The notes under the pieces: model-generated
Told to the model about the DNA's origin: nothing
Databases searched by the model: none
The model's input: the letters and a program-made list of their open reading frames with translations, nothing else
Shown: piece after piece, positions 56,077 to 64,000 of the stretch
Layout of the letters: every line of letters starts with the position of its first letter
Numbering within the stretch: position 1 is the first letter of the stretch
From: a bacterium
GTDB taxonomy: Bacteria > Bdellovibrionota > Bdellovibrionia > Bdellovibrionales > Bdellovibrionaceae
Assembly (NCBI GenBank): GCA_019752925.1
Contig: JAIELP010000001.1
Span: 241,073-305,072 of the forward strand
Length of the DNA: 64,000 nucleotides
Reading direction: 5' to 3'
Program-made: the position numbers and the translations under genes

Positions 56077-57837
56077 GTGAAACAGAGTTTATTTTATATT
56101 CTATCTTTATTGCTGGCGGTGGGTTGCGCAACCCATAAGCCTATTCAGAACAATGAAGTTTTCACTATGAAAACCGATATGTTTCCGCAGAATATTTCCA
56201 GAGCCGAGTACTATGAGCAAATGGCCATCAGTTACTCGCTTGAAAATGACTCAGATAAAGCTATCGAGTATTTTAGACTGTCTTTGTTACATAATCCTAA
56301 AAGAGTATCTCCTTATTTAAGTTTATCTGACGAATACAGAAAAGTTAAACGTAACCACTTAGCAATTGTTGAGTTGAGCGAAGCGCTTAAGTTAGAGCCT
56401 GACAATCTATCCATTCTTAAAAAAATTGGTGACTTGTACCTTGAAACTAAAATTTATTCAAAAGCACGCGAAGTTTATAAAACAATGTTACAAAAAGATC
56501 ATAAATTTGAAGAAGCAGAATGGGCTTTGTTTTATATTTTTAAAATCGAGAAAAAATACAATGAAGCATTAAGCACATTGGTGAAAATCAGTCCGAATGA
56601 TTCAAATAATTTCAGAATTGCCTATGAAAAAGCTATGATTTATAAAATTACTAGAGAATCAGAGCTTTATAATGAGTGGCTGGCTCAGGCTTATGCACTT
56701 AATCCACGTGATCGTCAGGTAGTTCTTGAGTACGTAACAAATTCCTTTGCGCAAAAACAGTTTAAAGAGTCAACTTTTGCTCTTATGAATTTTTCTGATA
56801 CTCATGAATTTGATATGGAAATTTCACAAAACTTATCCTATTCAGCCGTTCAGTCTGAGCATTATGAAGTTGCTTTGCGTGAATACAATAAACAACGTCC
56901 TTTAACATACGATATCGGAATGATAGATCTGAAAAAGGCCCATGTTTATTATTTAATGAACGATTTAAAGAATGCAGAAAAGCTATATTTATCACTTTTA
57001 AGGTATCAGGAAAGCGACGAAGCTCGCTTTTACCTGGCTCAAATTTATATTACACAGGAAAAACCTGATGATGCCGCCTTTATCTTAAGTAAAATTCCTA
57101 CTTCATCTGATTACTACGGCGAAGCACAGGTTCGTTTAGCTTTATATCACAAACTTGAAGGCAAATACGATGACGCTATCAATACAATTCGTTCGGCCTT
57201 TATTGCAAGACCTGATCAGCTAGTAATCTACAAGACTTATGCAGATTTCATGATCGAGGGTAAAAGATACGTTGAAACAGTTGCCTTACTTGAAAAGGGC
57301 ATTCAATTATTTCCTCGCGATGAAGATTTGCGTCTGAAAATGGCTTTTCTGCACTATAGACTGAGCAATCAAAAAGCATTCAAAAAACAAATTTTTGCAG
57401 CTTTAAAAATTAACCCGCGAAGTGCCAATGTTTATTCGATGCTAGCTGAGCTTTGGTACCTGAAAAATAAAAGCCCTGATGATATCGTGTTCTTCGTAAA
57501 TAAGGCTGTTGAGTTGAAATCGACAAATAAAAACATAAAGCCACTCTTGGCATGGGCCCTTATGCAACAAAACAACTCGACTGAGGCCGTGGCCATCTTT
57601 GAAGAGTTTTACGAGGAAAATCCGAAAGAATCTTTCTTTGCGAGATCACTTTCGCAAGTCTATAGTCGTGCGGATGTTAAACAAAAAGCCAAAGACTTGG
57701 CGGATGCAGCCACTGTATTGGAATCCAACGACAGCCTAAAGTCGAGATTCCTTTTCAGACCTGAAACTCAGCAAGTGGATGCCGAACAATTTAAACAAAA
57801 CCCGACGCGACTTCCTGCCAGTCTAGAAAATAACTAA
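56077..57837 (+). CDS. TPR-repeat lipoprotein
   Basis: A 586-residue lipoprotein. The signal MKQSLFYILSLLLAVGC ends in a lipobox (L-A-V-G-C) with lipid attachment at Cys17. The rest is a long array of tetratricopeptide repeats: EYYEQMAISYSLENDSDKAIEYFRLSLLHNP, HLAIVELSEALKLEP, and further helix pairs to about residue 560, which form a protein-binding superhelix. Its start is GTG directly after a sigma-28-like promoter. It heads the surface cluster with a LysM/barrel protein, an FN3 lipoprotein and the fibre gene, so it may help assemble or export the fibre; this is inference from position. Confidence 0.82.
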   Translation: MKQSLFYILSLLLAVGCATHKPIQNNEVFTMKTDMFPQNISRAEYYEQMAISYSLENDSDKAIEYFRLSLLHNPKRVSPYLSLSDEYRKVKRNHLAIVELSEALKLEPDNLSILKKIGDLYLETKIYSKAREVYKTMLQKDHKFEEAEWALFYIFKIEKKYNEALSTLVKISPNDSNNFRIAYEKAMIYKITRESELYNEWLAQAYALNPRDRQVVLEYVTNSFAQKQFKESTFALMNFSDTHEFDMEISQNLSYSAVQSEHYEVALREYNKQRPLTYDIGMIDLKKAHVYYLMNDLKNAEKLYLSLLRYQESDEARFYLAQIYITQEKPDDAAFILSKIPTSSDYYGEAQVRLALYHKLEGKYDDAINTIRSAFIARPDQLVIYKTYADFMIEGKRYVETVALLEKGIQLFPRDEDLRLKMAFLHYRLSNQKAFKKQIFAALKINPRSANVYSMLAELWYLKNKSPDDIVFFVNKAVELKSTNKNIKPLLAWALMQQNNSTEAVAIFEEFYEENPKESFFARSLSQVYSRADVKQKAKDLADAATVLESNDSLKSRFLFRPETQQVDAEQFKQNPTRLPASLENN

Positions 57838-57885: not shown

Positions 57886-59115
57886 ATGATGACAGAAGTA
57901 CGACTTAAATTTATTAACAGCATTTTGATATTAATATTTTTACAGCTCATTTTTTTACAGAAAATTGATGCGGCAGAAATTTGTACGCCTTTATCAAAAC
58001 AAACACGCTACTCTGTTCAAAACGGTGAAGACTTTTATTCCATATTAAAAAACTTTCGTCTGGAGCCTGTAATTGGCGATGGTGGCTCGTTAGAGGCACT
58101 TCAGAAAATGAATAATGTGCCAAATCAAACAGCCACAGAGCCTGGCAATGAAATTATTATGCCGTTTAAATGCGAAGAGCAATTGGTCGGATGGCGTGTA
58201 ATTGATAAAGGAACTTACCGACTTATTACTTCTGAAAAAATCGGAAAAATTACAGGAACAGACGGAAAAGTTAAAACTGAAAACCTCGGTGCAGATCAAC
58301 AAACTACAGATATTTTAAATAAAGATATTCCAGGTGGTGCTCAGGTAGATCTTGATTCTGTTGGCCCTACGGAGGAAGTATCGGAAGCTCTCCGTTACCG
58401 CATGATTTGTGACGGCGAGTGGACCGGTACAGAATGTATCACGCGTTATTCTACAATTTTTGTAACAGGCGCAGCTTGGTACAACCGCTACGATGGTACC
58501 GATAGAACAACCGGCGGACAAGGTGTTCTGCTGAGTAAGCTGAATCCGGAAGTTGGCTTTGGTTGGAATAATTATTGGACAGAAAACTTCAGAACTGATT
58601 TGTATTTCTCAGTCATTAACAATGACATTCATCCTGAGATTCGTGAGAGACCTATTGAGCAAAGTAAAAAAACCTTAAACACATTCAGTGCATCTGCGCG
58701 CTACGACATTGGCAAATGGGGGTTTAGCGCCGGCATTCAGCAACGTGAAAGATTGTTCTACCGATTCTTAGTACAGAATATCGTTTTGTTTGACGACGGA
58801 GGAGTTGTTGTGAATGCGGTTCCGCTTGTTGATGTGCACGTAGGTGCAAGTTACATGTTCCATCAATCCGGAAAATTCCGTTTTGACGGGGAAGTTAATA
58901 TGACATCAATTCAGGGTGGCGGCACCAGCGGTTACAATGTTAATGCCGGAACTGCTTTTGATATTGGGTTTACTGTTCAGCAAGATCGCGTGAAAGAATA
59001 TCTTTTTGGTACGGTAAAATATGAGGTGTCTCAACAAGATACGGATATTCTGTTACAGAAAGCATCTAAACTAGGATTTAAATTTGGGTACGCATGGAAG
59101 CTGAAAGATTGGTAA
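57886..59115 (+). CDS. outer-membrane protein with LysM-like N-terminus
   Basis: A 409-residue exported protein. After the signal peptide (cleavage after KIDA) lies a LysM-like segment (residues about 40-95: YSVQNGEDFYSILKNF to EPGNEIIMPF), which could hold peptidoglycan. A Gly/Asp-rich linker follows, and the last 220 residues read as amphipathic beta strands with aromatic ends (WGFSAGIQQRERLFYRF, GASYMFHQSGKFRFDGEVNM), ending FKFGYAWKLKDW, in keeping with an outer-membrane barrel. It could link the wall to the outer membrane. ATG at 57886 is chosen, without a clear ribosome binding site. The stop codon overlaps an ATG (TAATG) that begins a 15-codon frame. Confidence 0.65.
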   Translation: MMTEVRLKFINSILILIFLQLIFLQKIDAAEICTPLSKQTRYSVQNGEDFYSILKNFRLEPVIGDGGSLEALQKMNNVPNQTATEPGNEIIMPFKCEEQLVGWRVIDKGTYRLITSEKIGKITGTDGKVKTENLGADQQTTDILNKDIPGGAQVDLDSVGPTEEVSEALRYRMICDGEWTGTECITRYSTIFVTGAAWYNRYDGTDRTTGGQGVLLSKLNPEVGFGWNNYWTENFRTDLYFSVINNDIHPEIRERPIEQSKKTLNTFSASARYDIGKWGFSAGIQQRERLFYRFLVQNIVLFDDGGVVVNAVPLVDVHVGASYMFHQSGKFRFDGEVNMTSIQGGGTSGYNVNAGTAFDIGFTVQQDRVKEYLFGTVKYEVSQQDTDILLQKASKLGFKFGYAWKLKDW

Positions 59116-59162
59116 TGATGACATATACTTATAGGAAGTTAACAAAAGAAGGTTTGGCATAA
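59115..59162 (+). CDS. possible 15-codon leader frame
   Basis: ATG at 59115 overlaps the previous stop (TAATG) and opens a 15-codon frame (MMTYTYRKLTKEGLA) whose TAA overlaps the ATA at 59159. It has no protein signal of its own. It may be a translation relay into the next gene, or the 5' end of that gene in a shifted frame. Confidence 0.3.
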   Translation: MMTYTYRKLTKEGLA

Positions 59163-60205
59163 GAACGTTTATCCGTCATATACTTTCGAATACGTTACTG
59201 CTTGTTGCGACATTATTTGTCGTAGGTTGTGACTTTAATCCACTAGGCGGAAGTAAATCTAATTTAGATCCAACTTTCGAGCCGGGTAAGCACACACCAT
59301 CACTGCCTCCTGTTATTAGTTCTATATCTGATTTTATCATCGACGAAAATGACGTGCAAACAATTCCCTTCACGATTAACGATCCTGATACATTCATGGT
59401 TTGTTCTCTTGTATTCGTAAAAGCAACTTCATCAAATAATACAATAATAGATAGTACTGGCTTAACTGTTGGTGGTACGTATCCTAACTGTACATTAAGA
59501 ATTGCACCTAAAGCTTTCCAATTTGGCGTTGTTAATATTACTGTTACTCTTTATGACTTCTGGACATATGCAAGCTCTAACTTCCAGTTAACAGTTGTTC
59601 ATATTTTAGCTCCAGGTGCCTTTGCAATTACAGATGCAACAGGCGGCAATCAAACAGTCGATATCACATGGCAGAATGCTGCGTATATGTTAACGAGTGG
59701 TGCATTTACTTCTCCATATTATAATCTTTACTACCGCGTAACTGGTTCCGGTTCAGCGTTTACTGAAATTCAGAGAGTGACTTCTCCTTACACCGTAACC
59801 GGGTTAACGAATGGTACGGAATATGACTTTTATGTATTAGCACGTAACTCTTTAGGGCAGCGTCAAAGTAATACTGTAACGGCTCAGCCCACGCGCTTTC
59901 AATTCCGTGGTGCCGCTTTTGTTCCTGGCAGTAATCAAGGCGAAACAGCAGCTATGTCTGGAGCTAGTAGCAATCCAAACGCTGTTAATACTCAGCACAC
60001 AAATTTTTCTTTGATGCATGAGGTGCCTCTAGAAGATGCGACTTACCCTTCATTTGCATACGATTTGGCTGCGCCAACAGGAATTATTGAAGATCCTACG
60101 CCAGCGTCGGGATCTAATCCACCTTCATCTCTTACTACTACCTCAGGTAACTATAAAGGTTACGTGAACTCTCAAGGCAACATTTTATCAGGAGTCGGAC
60201 AGTGA
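59159..60205 (+). CDS. lipoprotein with fibronectin type III domain
   Basis: A 348-residue lipoprotein. The segment RTFIRHILSNTLLLVATLFVVGC is a fine lipoprotein signal with a V-V-G-C lipobox, so the gene begins near 59159. In this frame, however, no ATG, GTG or TTG lies between the TAG at 59132-59134 and the Cys codon. ATA at 59159, six bases after AGAAGG, is the best start. The mature part has a Ser/Pro-rich linker, a beta domain (residues about 55-145) and one FN3 domain (about 145-240: FAITDATGGNQTVDITW to TEYDFYVLARNSLGQ). Its stop overlaps the fibre gene start (GTGA). The arrangement suggests it anchors or caps the fibre. Confidence 0.65.
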   Translation: MRTFIRHILSNTLLLVATLFVVGCDFNPLGGSKSNLDPTFEPGKHTPSLPPVISSISDFIIDENDVQTIPFTINDPDTFMVCSLVFVKATSSNNTIIDSTGLTVGGTYPNCTLRIAPKAFQFGVVNITVTLYDFWTYASSNFQLTVVHILAPGAFAITDATGGNQTVDITWQNAAYMLTSGAFTSPYYNLYYRVTGSGSAFTEIQRVTSPYTVTGLTNGTEYDFYVLARNSLGQRQSNTVTAQPTRFQFRGAAFVPGSNQGETAAMSGASSNPNAVNTQHTNFSLMHEVPLEDATYPSFAYDLAAPTGIIEDPTPASGSNPPSSLTTTSGNYKGYVNSQGNILSGVGQ

Positions 60206-63200
60206 AAAATACTATAAGGTACGTTTGCTCAGTATTTTTGTTCATGATGTTTGCGGCACTCACCGCGAACTCTCAACAGCTCAGTTATCACGGTCGTATT
60301 ATCGACAGCGTGACTAACTTGGGTTTAACAGGAACTGTAGAGTTTAGAGTTCAAGTTCGAACTCCTTCCACTTCTCCTGCCAACTGTTTAATGTACGAAG
60401 AAATCGTATCACGAAACGTAACAAACGGCGTTTTCGTGCTCGGTATTAATAGTGGTGCTGGTGTAGTAAGTCCACTTAATGGTTATACGGTTCAACAGGT
60501 TTTCAGTAATAAAAATACTTTCGGTGCTTTCAACTTAGCTGGTAATTGTACTGCAGGTGGCCCAACGTACTCTCCTGCTGCAACTGACGCCAGACGTGTA
60601 AGCATTTCTTTCAGAGCAAATCCAGGTGATCCTTGGGAACCACTGCCAACTCAAACAGTAGCCTATGTTCCTTCGGCAATTGAATCTTTAAATGTTGGTG
60701 GTTTCTCAGTTGATGCTTTAATGAGAGTAGTAGATGGTTCAGGTAACCCGCTTAACGTAACTCCTTTAAATAATACTCAATATACTGAGCTGATTAATAC
60801 ATTATCTAATGCCAGTAGTTTTTACTTAAGAACCGGTGATCCAGCAGTGGGCTTTACTGGAGCTTTAGCTGGTGACGTAACAGGTACTCAAGGTGCCACT
60901 TCAGTGGATAGAATTCGCGGCATCAACGTAAATATTGGCGGTATCGTAGCCGGTCAAACTTTACAATATAACGGTACAAACTTTATTCCTGTAACAGATG
61001 GTGGCGGTACGGTAACCAATGTTACTTCGTCTAATGCATATTTAACAGTTGCAACCGGAACAACAACTCCTTCTTTAACTGTTAATGTTGGCACAGTAGC
61101 TAATACAGTTGCGGCAGGTAATGATGTTCGTATCGTAAATGCGATTCAATCAGGTGGTGCGGCTGGTGGTGATTTGGGTGGTACATTCCCTAACCCATCT
61201 GTAGCAACTGTGGGTGGTCGTACTGCAGCTCAGATCAATACTTCTGTAACAGATACTTTGGCTGCAACAAATGCCAACACTGCAAGTACGATTGTAAAAC
61301 GTGATGCTTCAGGAAATATCGCAGTAGGAACAGTTTCAGCAACGAATGCATCCATTAATAATTTAAGAATTTACAATGCCGGTAACGTTAATAATGCATT
61401 AATTCAGCTGCCGGGCACTGTGAGTGGTGACTATACTTTAACCTTACCTTCGACATTACCTGTAGCGGGAACTCTTTTAGGTACAAATAGTTCGGGTGAT
61501 TTATCGTGGGTAAATCCGTCAGCTATCGGTGTTACCAATGTTACAGCATCGCCTCCATTAGCTTCTTCTGGCGGTTCTACGCCTAATATTACAATTACTC
61601 AATCGAGCGGTGCTGCAAACGGTTATTTAAGTAGTAATGACTGGACAACATTTAACAATAAATTATCTACAACTTTGGCTAACGGTCGTGTGTGGGTTGG
61701 TAATGCCAGTGGTGATGCTACCGCTCAATATATGACATCCACAGAAATTCACTCATCGGTTGCAACAGGTTCCGCGGCTTGGTTTAACGTATCCGGTGCG
61801 TGTCCGACAGGTCAGTCTTTAAATTATTCAGCTATTACAGACCAAATTACTTGTACAGCTTACTCTTTATCGGGAAGCCAAGTAACAACTGCTTTAGCAG
61901 CAGTTATGAGCGGCGATGTGTCGATGAATGCTTCAGGTGATGTAACAATACGTAATAATGCGATCACCAATGCAAAAATTTTAAGTGGCGATATCAGTTG
62001 GACAAAAATTAATCCGGCTACTACGCCTACAACTTTCGGTGGTTACGGTATTACAGACGTAACTTTAGCTAATGCCGGTGGTTTAGATTCAGTTCAAGGC
62101 GGTACTTTAGCAGCAAGGCCTGCAGCGGCTCCAGCCAATGCAAATCGTATGTATGTTGCTAGCGATACAGGTGAAATTTATTACTCTAACGGTGCGGCTT
62201 GGTTAAAAGTGGGTTCTGCTACTGGTTTGGGTGGTACAGTTACCAGCGTAACAAGCGGTGGCGCCCCTATCGTTATTGGTGGTACTTCAGCAGATCCTAC
62301 AGTTTCAATCACTCAGGCTTCTGTTGCAACTAACGGTTATTTATCGAGTACGGACTTTACAACTTTCAATAATAAATTAGGCACAACAACAAGCTTTAGC
62401 GGTGATGTAACAGGAACTTACAATGCTACGGTGTTATCGAATTCTGGAGTTACTGCTGGTTCGTTTGGTGGAGTAAATGGCGTGCCAACATTTACAGTAG
62501 ATGCAAAAGGTCGCTTAACAGCTGCGGGTGCAGCATCATTAGATATTACAAATGGAACAACAGGTACGTTGGGTGTGGCTCGCGGCGGTACCGGAGTAAC
62601 TACCTTCACTGCGGGTAACTTATTAGTAGGTAATGGAGCAGGTGCTTTGAACACATTAGCTCCAGGAGCTAACGGAAATATATTATATGTATCTGGTGGC
62701 GCTTGGACTAGTGGCACACCGGCTTCTAATAATATTTTGACTACAGCAAGTACATTTAGTGGAGATGTAACCGGCACTAGTTCTACAATTGCGTTAACCA
62801 ATACTGGCGTAGTGGCATCATCCGATTACACAAAAGTAACAGTGGATGCAAAAGGCCGAGTAACTTCAGCAGGAAGATTAGTTTCAGCTGATATTTCGAC
62901 ATTATATGGATATGTTCCAGCAAACAGTTCAACAAGCGTGGCTTCCGTAAATGGTATGACTGGCGCGATCACGATAAATACGGGATCAGCGAGTAATGAT
63001 TTAACAGTTGCCAATGGTGGATCGACAGTAACGATTAATATCCCGAATGCAAGTAACAGTGTTATAAGAGGTTTATTAACATCGACTGATTGGACAACGT
63101 TTAATAATAAGCTTGGAACAACAACCAACTTCAGTGGTGATGTAACGGGAACATATAATACCATTACATTAAATAACACAGGTGTAGTGGCAAGTACGGA

Positions 63201-64000
63201 TTACACGAAGGTAACAGTAGATGCTAAGGGTCGTGTAACAAGTGCGGGTCGATTAACATCAGGCGATTTATCATCGATTATAGGTTACACTCCTGTATCT
63301 CTAGTAACGGGCGTAGCTCCGATAGATGTCAACAACTCCTCACCAACATCATCAACGCCAATAATTAGTTTTAACTACGCTGGAGAGTTTAACGTATCAG
63401 GTGGTAATTTAATTTTAGCAAACACTGGGGTAACAGCAGGAACATATAACCGAGTAACTGTAAATGCTAAAGGTCAGGTAACAGCAGGCTTTGCTTCATC
63501 AGACTTATCAGCAGTAACAGGAACATTAGGCATAGCAAATGGTGGTACTGGTGCAACAAGTGCAAATGCAGCGTTGAATAACTTATTACCATCGCAGGGT
63601 GGTAATGCAGGAAGATTATTAAGAACAGATGGAGCGAACACATCATGGTATGCGTTAGCGTCGTCGGATATAACAACAGCATTAGGCTTTACTCCTGTAA
63701 CGAATGTATTAACAACAGGAAATATAATAGTAGGTGTGGGTAACGTAGCTACATCAGTAACTCCAAGTGGTGATATTTCATCAATAACTGGTGGTAATAT
63801 TCAGTTAGCCAATACAGGAGTAGTAGCAAGTACGGATTACACAAAGGTAACGGTAGATGCTAAGGGTCGCGTAACGAATGCAGGAAGATTAGTATCTTCA
63901 GATATCAGTGCATTATACGGTTATACTCCAGCGAATAGTTCTTCGAGTGTAGCATCAGTAAACGGGATGAACGGTGCAATTACAATAGCAACAGGTACAG
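60202..64000 (+). CDS. giant secreted tail-fibre-like adhesin, MAT type (3' end missing)
   Basis: A reading frame of at least 1266 codons open to the end of the window. It starts at GTG 60202, with GGAG upstream and a four-base overlap with the FN3 lipoprotein gene. The signal peptide (residues about 5-25, MMFAALTANS) is followed by an N-terminal domain with QQLSYHGRIIDSVTNLGLTG and CLMYEEIV, like the start of Bdellovibrio fibre proteins. The rest is rich in Gly, Thr, Ser, Asn and Val and made of phage-fibre units: GDLGGTFPNPSVATVGG, YVASDTGEIYYSNGAAWLKVG, and repeats of NTGVVAS-DYTKVTVDAKGRVT. Such proteins trimerise and recognise prey. The tip and any C-terminal chaperone domain lie outside the window. 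Confidence 0.8.
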   Translation, partial: MKNTIRYVCSVFLFMMFAALTANSQQLSYHGRIIDSVTNLGLTGTVEFRVQVRTPSTSPANCLMYEEIVSRNVTNGVFVLGINSGAGVVSPLNGYTVQQVFSNKNTFGAFNLAGNCTAGGPTYSPAATDARRVSISFRANPGDPWEPLPTQTVAYVPSAIESLNVGGFSVDALMRVVDGSGNPLNVTPLNNTQYTELINTLSNASSFYLRTGDPAVGFTGALAGDVTGTQGATSVDRIRGINVNIGGIVAGQTLQYNGTNFIPVTDGGGTVTNVTSSNAYLTVATGTTTPSLTVNVGTVANTVAAGNDVRIVNAIQSGGAAGGDLGGTFPNPSVATVGGRTAAQINTSVTDTLAATNANTASTIVKRDASGNIAVGTVSATNASINNLRIYNAGNVNNALIQLPGTVSGDYTLTLPSTLPVAGTLLGTNSSGDLSWVNPSAIGVTNVTASPPLASSGGSTPNITITQSSGAANGYLSSNDWTTFNNKLSTTLANGRVWVGNASGDATAQYMTSTEIHSSVATGSAAWFNVSGACPTGQSLNYSAITDQITCTAYSLSGSQVTTALAAVMSGDVSMNASGDVTIRNNAITNAKILSGDISWTKINPATTPTTFGGYGITDVTLANAGGLDSVQGGTLAARPAAAPANANRMYVASDTGEIYYSNGAAWLKVGSATGLGGTVTSVTSGGAPIVIGGTSADPTVSITQASVATNGYLSSTDFTTFNNKLGTTTSFSGDVTGTYNATVLSNSGVTAGSFGGVNGVPTFTVDAKGRLTAAGAASLDITNGTTGTLGVARGGTGVTTFTAGNLLVGNGAGALNTLAPGANGNILYVSGGAWTSGTPASNNILTTASTFSGDVTGTSSTIALTNTGVVASSDYTKVTVDAKGRVTSAGRLVSADISTLYGYVPANSSTSVASVNGMTGAITINTGSASNDLTVANGGSTVTINIPNASNSVIRGLLTSTDWTTFNNKLGTTTNFSGDVTGTYNTITLNNTGVVASTDYTKVTVDAKGRVTSAGRLTSGDLSSIIGYTPVSLVTGVAPIDVNNSSPTSSTPIISFNYAGEFNVSGGNLILANTGVTAGTYNRVTVNAKGQVTAGFASSDLSAVTGTLGIANGGTGATSANAALNNLLPSQGGNAGRLLRTDGANTSWYALASSDITTALGFTPVTNVLTTGNIIVGVGNVATSVTPSGDISSITGGNIQLANTGVVASTDYTKVTVDAKGRVTNAGRLVSSDISALYGYTPANSSSSVASVNGMNGAITIATGT
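62800..62880 (+). repeat. fibre repeat unit, copy 1
   Basis: Encodes NTGVVASSDYTKVTVDAKGR and then VTSAGRL, 27 codons, inside the fibre gene. Copies 2 and 3 lie at 63175-63255 and 63811-63891. Divergent copies lie at 62440-62529 and 63421-63489. Confidence 0.85.
63175..63255 (+). repeat. fibre repeat unit, copy 2
   Basis: Encodes 27 residues that differ from copy 1 at one position (T for S before DYTK). The DNA differs mainly at third codon positions, so selection on the protein is likely. Confidence 0.85.
63811..63891 (+). repeat. fibre repeat unit, copy 3
   Basis: Differs from copy 2 in a single residue (RVTNAGRL for RVTSAGRL). As in copy 1, YGYTPANSS-SVASVNGM-GAIT follows, so the repeated block is larger than 27 codons and includes a second element (about 62899-62970 and 63919-63990). 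Confidence 0.85.

Follow-up and report, generated by a model that had tools for sequence, protein, structure and literature searches.

The 3' end of the 64,000-nucleotide stretch analysed here (the window), which comes from a relative of the predatory bacterium Pseudobdellovibrio, carries the gene of a giant fibre protein, assigned below to the mosaic adhesive trimer (MAT) superfamily. Upstream of it are genes coding for a tetratricopeptide repeat (TPR) lipoprotein, a protein combining a LysM domain with a predicted outer membrane β-barrel (LysM/barrel), and a lipoprotein with a fibronectin type III (FN3) domain. This gene order was found in eight genomes of the genus (G004 has two additional genes after the TPR gene), and in all eight, the stop codon of the FN3 lipoprotein gene and the start of the fibre gene overlap by 4 bp. 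An earlier note on this DNA had described the three upstream surface genes in the same way and treated all four genes as one set. Comparison of 59 genomes (numbered G000 and up) retains the association of surface genes with the fibre, but not the four-gene set: the LysM/barrel, FN3 lipoprotein, and fibre genes are a three-gene block, and the TPR gene is its flank. Both P. exovorus JSS (G002) and G010 have the TPR gene, a downstream lipoprotein gene, and a transporter gene together, and lack the other three genes at the site. Since the TPR gene persists there, a four-gene unit was rejected, though the TPR gene stands beside the block in all eight cluster genomes.

The fibre frame is free of stop codons through 1,266 codons and is open at the window end, which coincides with the end of contig C3 (305,072 bp), so that it is the assembly, and not a stop codon, that truncates the gene. 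Judged by eye, its N-terminus reads as a signal peptide, and its shaft matches phage fibre families of PHROGs (phrog_5181, E 1.6e-13; phrog_33377, E 9.7e-12; phrog_7389, “tail fiber protein”, E 0.0018); the earlier description of a long open frame with a signal peptide and phage-tail-fibre modules is borne out. In a Pfam scan at E ≤ 1, nothing matched the part of the fibre that lies in the window, and a PDB sequence search with this part was likewise empty. Contig C2 opens with a 707-amino-acid frame of the same repeat style, with the terminus ...DGTDCLITWITGF. The end of C3 and the start of C2 very likely belong to a single gene, with the middle portion missing between them, because the tip and the downstream genes recur at contig ends of relatives, and because JSS and G010 keep the TPR gene, lipoprotein, and transporter together. 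In G003, G004, G008, and G009, the frame carrying the tip is cut off by a contig boundary, and a lipoprotein resembling (by eye) the 353-amino-acid one 3' of the fibre on C2 adjoins it or lies a few genes away, with a transporter beyond. Past position 64,000, the frame thus very likely runs on to a tip domain with no early stop. A contig ends inside the fibre gene in seven of the eight cluster genomes. In G013 (Ca. Bdellovibrio qaytius), the orthologue is complete; it is 4,489 amino acids long and has the terminus ...DGTDCLVTWITGF, in agreement with the giant size first proposed. Scaled roughly from Bd3182 (about 922 residues, ~550 Å model; PMC10769870), a protein of this size would be ~0.27 µm long.

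MAT fibres of Bdellovibrio bacteriovorus are typically about 1,000 amino acids in length (Caulton et al. 2024, PMC10769870). Fibres of this superfamily serve Bdellovibrio in prey recognition; their features include a trimeric shaft of β-prism and β-helix type, a C-terminal end that is either an S74 chaperone or a non-S74 adhesive tip, and exposure on the cell surface with a change of place during predation. The window fibre has a conserved β-rich domain of ~130 amino acids directly after the signal peptide. A profile (A1) built from the eight orthologous fibre N-domains, the window's included, matched 244 times in 45 of the 59 genomes, with a maximum of 21 matches in one. Two of the matched proteins, both from G018 (E 3e-20 and 2e-16), are identified as orthologues of Bd2740 and Bd2734 by their tips, which match solved structures 8OKS (Bd2740, E 7.6e-54) and 8OKW (Bd2734, E 4.7e-59). 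Because the profile recovers these orthologues, sequence comparison supports the earlier assignment of the window fibre to the MAT superfamily. One MAT N-domain was found at the search threshold in the window's genome (94% complete). Like the fibres of B. bacteriovorus, the window-type fibre has a signal peptide, a conserved N-domain, a phage-fibre-like shaft, and a C-terminal tip domain that would be of the non-S74 kind; unlike them, it is several times longer, ends in one conserved tip, and has a dedicated lipoprotein and barrel.

The tip is a 115-amino-acid domain at the end of the C2 frame, and the complete G013 orthologue terminates in the same domain. It was found at E ≤ 1e-3 in 16 of the 59 genomes, including six of the eight cluster genomes; the search was empty in G005 (where the contig ends inside the fibre) and G006 (64% complete). 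The five other cluster tips are 42–70% identical to that of the window's genome, which goes against the variable tips expected in the earlier note. The intramolecular S74-type chaperone also anticipated there was not seen, since the C2 part has no S74 match at E ≤ 0.1; the fibre is therefore not placed in the S74 subfamily of MATs. The 115-amino-acid tip occurs in other MAT frames as well (e.g., G035:C4, G047:C15, G034:C3, and G045:C2). A phmmer search for the identity of the tip found nothing, and comparison of the tip profile with solved structures gave seven weak matches (E 0.0014–0.93), mostly to short fibronectin stretches, which were taken as chance.

Full-length matches to the LysM/barrel protein and the FN3 lipoprotein were found only in the eight cluster genomes, with weaker barrel matches in 12 further genomes. 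JSS has no match to any of the three block profiles, and its block site (L258:7242-10186) is empty. With profile A1 at E ≤ 0.001, 15 MAT N-domains were counted in Ca. B. qaytius and none in JSS. Both are described as epibiotic predators (PMC11656739), so the number of MATs does not simply track lifestyle.

The FN3 lipoprotein consists of an NPLG motif, an Ig-like domain, the FN3 domain, and a C-terminal tail. Its frame starts 5' of the listed GTG at 59354, at about 59159, and thereby takes in the lipobox. No ATG, GTG, or TTG in the frame gives a normal signal peptide; the sole candidate start behind the AGAAGG sequence is ATA (59147–59161). By eye, G003 and G008 have ATT as the equivalent codon, and G006 has ATC. 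Four of the eight genomes may share a conserved start of the AUA/AUU/AUC type; if true, such a start would throttle the lipoprotein and the coupled fibre together. An exact NP[LF]G motif is present in 12 of 16 lipoproteins encoded directly 3' of a LysM/barrel gene (a count that leaves out the G037 and G014 barrel loci); it reads NLLG in G005 and G013, and is missing in G040 and G017. Some lipoproteins carry NPF without an adjoining barrel gene. We suggest that NPLG might be a barrel-contact motif. The Ig-like domain was also seen in tandem in very long frames of 1,591, 1,979, and 8,543 amino acids (G000 contigs C11 and C12; G013:C1:727728-749666).

The structure model of the LysM/barrel protein contains a closed fold that matches solved 10-strand barrels (OpcA/OmpT-like), and the protein is predicted to carry a 10-strand outer membrane barrel; identity to OpcA is 9%, and no sequence homology to it was shown. 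PF01476 (LysM) is listed for several of its homologues, and the few homologues with an organism name are all from Bdellovibrionota. LysM/OmpA-type tethers of the outer membrane join a peptidoglycan-binding-type domain to an outer membrane barrel. The window protein is predicted to have the same two elements in one chain, but differs from these tethers and from OpcA-like barrels in that its LysM domain precedes a low-confidence linker, which is followed by the 10-strand barrel. The order barrel, lipoprotein, MAT was also found in G022 and G020. At the Bd2734-type locus of G018, a DUF4421 protein takes the place of the barrel and is followed by a lipoprotein and the MAT.

Table 1. Features at the 3' end of the window (positions of the window; E, expectation value)
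Feature	Position	Strand	Basis or remark
TPR lipoprotein, 586 amino acids, constant upstream neighbour	56077..57837	+	Pfam TPR_19, E 4.7e-26
LysM, linker, and predicted 10-strand outer membrane β-barrel, 411 amino acids	57880..59115	+	
LysM-like domain, residues 44-95	58009..58164	+	Pfam; model elements at 41-109
β-barrel, residues 190-409	58447..59106	+	Predicted; ten strands when 214-232 is counted as a single broken one
Shine-Dalgarno-like AGAAGG, six bases 5' of ATA	59147..59152	+	Sequence
FN3 lipoprotein (candidate adapter), 348 amino acids from putative ATA start	59159..60205	+	Lipobox Cys 59228-59230; N-P-L-G 59237-59248
Fibronectin type III domain	59612..59878	+	PF00041, E 2.5e-8, above cutoff
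C-terminal tail ending NYKGYVNSQGNILSG	60095..60190	+	Tail profile, E 3e-9 (7.3e-4 in genome search)
GTGA overlap of lipoprotein stop and fibre start	60202..60205	+	Sequence; eight of eight genomes
Fibre gene, 5' part	60202..63999	+	1,266 codons, open at contig end; likely continuation C2:2-2125
Signal peptide and MAT N-domain	60205..60726	+	Profile A1, E 2.8e-83 here
Phage-fibre-like repeat shaft, first part	60727..63999	+	PHROGs matches, recurring motifs

In other genera, small lipoproteins encoded upstream of MAT genes share a C-terminal tail, and the FN3 lipoprotein of the window ends with the last part of it. The tail consensus is roughly G-x-E-F-V-x-G-S ... N-Y-K-V-x-S-S-V-G ... T-x-x-G-Y-K-V-Y-x-S-V-Q-G-x-M-I-S. 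A Pfam scan of six of the small lipoproteins gave no match. Among 3,527 open reading frames of 70 loci, 20 matched an iterated tail profile at E < 1, and all 20 lie just upstream of a MAT gene on the same strand; seven of them are seeds of the profile, and most of the 70 loci had been chosen for a MAT or barrel gene, with further MAT loci hand-picked, not drawn at random, among the profile A1 matches listed. In the 59 whole genomes, 37 distinct tail loci were found at E ≤ 1e-3 (of matches between E 0.001 and 1, only that of G013 was looked into), and 21 of them are within 150 bp upstream of a MAT gene. Without the 12 query rows, nine of 25 tail loci are MAT-adjacent; three of these have an orthologue among the query rows of the genus. 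Chance adjacency is expected at ~2e-4 per match, as estimated from 244 MAT matches in about 180 Mb. A tail match is present in 25 of 45 genomes with a MAT and in one of 14 without (Fisher p 0.0016); within the family, the corresponding numbers are 23 of 29 and none of eight, relatedness not being removed in either comparison. G010, where the block is absent, has two other MAT matches and one orphan tail lipoprotein elsewhere. Orphan tail lipoproteins of G018 and G025 (L231:2931-4006; L261:2615-3625) are followed by the same secreted-type protein and, by eye, by similar genes further on, and thus mark a conserved locus.

The tails and the N-domains of adjacent MATs diverged together. Their pairwise distances correlate with a Mantel r of 0.80 in 28 lipoprotein/MAT pairs and 0.81 in the 20 pairs outside the genus (none of 5,000 permutations reached these values in either case). 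The lipobox filter alone gives 24 pairs, and allowing tail matches gives 28, with G014 not included; four of the 28 (both pairs of G018, and those of G031 and G047) were assigned by position and lipobox only. The genes overlap by 4 bp in 17 of the 28 pairs when the MAT start nearest the lipoprotein stop is used. In G035, one pair groups with G032/G026, and the three others group with each other, by both proteins, a matched grouping beyond what species relatedness alone would give.

On balance, we think that the FN3 lipoprotein and the LysM/barrel protein probably form the socket of the giant MAT-type fibre, in which the lipoprotein tail would bind the fibre N-domain, and the barrel would tie the assembly to the outer membrane and peptidoglycan. 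The coupled start would make the fibre alongside its anchor. The lipoprotein, presumably lipidated, would sit in the outer membrane with its N-terminal segment meeting the barrel, and its Ig-like and FN3 domains may bridge the surface layer of the predator itself as a spacer; its C-terminal tail, presumably exposed, would hold the N-domains of a presumably trimeric fibre. The LysM domain would tie the barrel to peptidoglycan, and the shaft, whose length is bounded by the 4,489 residues of the complete orthologue, would carry one conserved tip, a candidate prey adhesin, far from the cell. Of the export and anchoring system proposed in the earlier note, the anchoring part fits this arrangement; export as the main role is not supported, the barrel being predicted to be 10-stranded and OpcA/OmpT-like.

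Several observations weigh against the socket. Structure predictions cover single chains only, and the contact between lipoprotein and fibre is our inference. The window LysM domain scores below the Pfam cutoff (PF01476, 15.6 bits vs. 20.9), and the tip model is weak (pLDDT 66), with no PDB match at E ≤ 0.001 in Foldseek. The Mantel r drops to 0.55 (none of 5,000 permutations) when one pair per genome is used (14 pairs), and the permutations leave shared ancestry in. At the Bd2734/Bd2740 locus of G018, the lipoproteins fall under the tail threshold (E 0.13 for one and no match for the other), and were assigned by position and lipobox. Finally, 16 of the 37 tail loci have no adjoining MAT gene, and a small lipoprotein gene is directly upstream in ~23 of the 61 MAT frames read (one of them, in G014, doubtful), leaving ~38 without; nearly all MAT copies examined outside the cluster in G033, G036, G005, and G013 are of the latter kind.

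The alternative that survives best, though we consider it unlikely, is that the lipoprotein and the LysM/barrel protein serve to assemble or export the fibre, the former as a periplasmic chaperone that would hold the N-domain or aid trimerisation and the latter as a barrel involved in passage across the outer membrane, with neither staying as an anchor. Translational coupling and inheritance as a block would be expected of a dedicated chaperone no less than of an anchor, and FapF and autotransporter barrels are among the fold matches of the barrel, of which the 10-strand OpcA/OmpT-like prediction has been noted above. A still less probable explanation is ordinary co-transcription, whereby three independent surface proteins share one locus, and the lipoprotein-MAT neighbourhood goes back to operons that were passed down although their genes are functionally unrelated. 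The unpaired MAT frames and tail loci just counted are what it would predict, but the recurrence of the neighbourhood across genera, the 4-bp overlaps, the matched grouping of the G035 paralogues, and the absence of the genes as a block all speak against it. A prophage or tailocin tail fibre, suggested by the likeness of the shaft repeats to phage tail fibres (PHROGs 5181, 33377, and 7389), was rejected as highly improbable, since the fibre has a signal peptide, a MAT N-domain, and lipoprotein and predicted outer membrane partners, and since a reading of both flanks (in the window, ~10 kb upstream; on C2, 12 kb) brought up no recognisable capsid, tail, or other virion genes. The prophage setting that the earlier note gave as a refutation is not seen there.

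Because most of the MATs read are unpaired, an anchor serving MATs in general would have to be used by several of them or be of another kind. A wider version of the socket proposal, which we hold more tentatively than the socket itself, accommodates this: tail lipoproteins would be the missing cell-surface sockets of MAT fibres at large, their tails plugging into the invariant N-domain, with paired MATs owning a socket gene and unpaired MATs sharing orphans. The Pseudobdellovibrio socket would then have grown into a spacer clamped by the LysM-barrel, holding a fibre perhaps a quarter of a micrometre long.

Around the block, flagellin, aldo/keto reductase, HD-domain, and transporter genes were recognised by eye, and DUF2817 by Pfam, neighbours that likewise count against a phage origin. 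The match of the TPR lipoprotein to the Slam TPR, which would make it a candidate Slam-like exporter, is weak (E 0.0018, below cutoff). In G011 (79% complete), where no MAT N-domain match was found, a TPR lipoprotein fused to a LysM domain (L034:11256-12680) adjoins the flanking lipoprotein and transporter genes of the block, with no barrel or fibre there. On C2, a 1,892-amino-acid protein with PKD and RCC1 repeats is encoded 3' of the fibre (L007:2357-8035); it is not at that place on the tip contigs of G003, G004, G008, and G009.

The authors of the MAT study describe it as the first to tie an adhesin of Bdellovibrio to a specific surface on prey, and it left open the partner of the N-domain (PMC10769870); the words “lipoprotein” and “operon” do not occur in its main text, supplements being outside this scope. 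No described lipoprotein partner of a MAT was found in the literature covered, which includes PMC10769870, PMC11003981, PMC12034629, and PMC11656739, and excludes most subscription papers, preprints, and supplements. The fibre block explains the truncated look of these genes in draft genomes, and the lipoprotein family beside a subset of MATs provides a testable candidate for the anchor of MAT fibres. Single mutants of bd2734 and bd2740 prey slightly less well on E. coli (PMC10769870), and the similar lipoproteins at the same position in the Bd2734/Bd2740 locus would let the anchor proposal be tested directly in a laboratory strain that is easy to work with.
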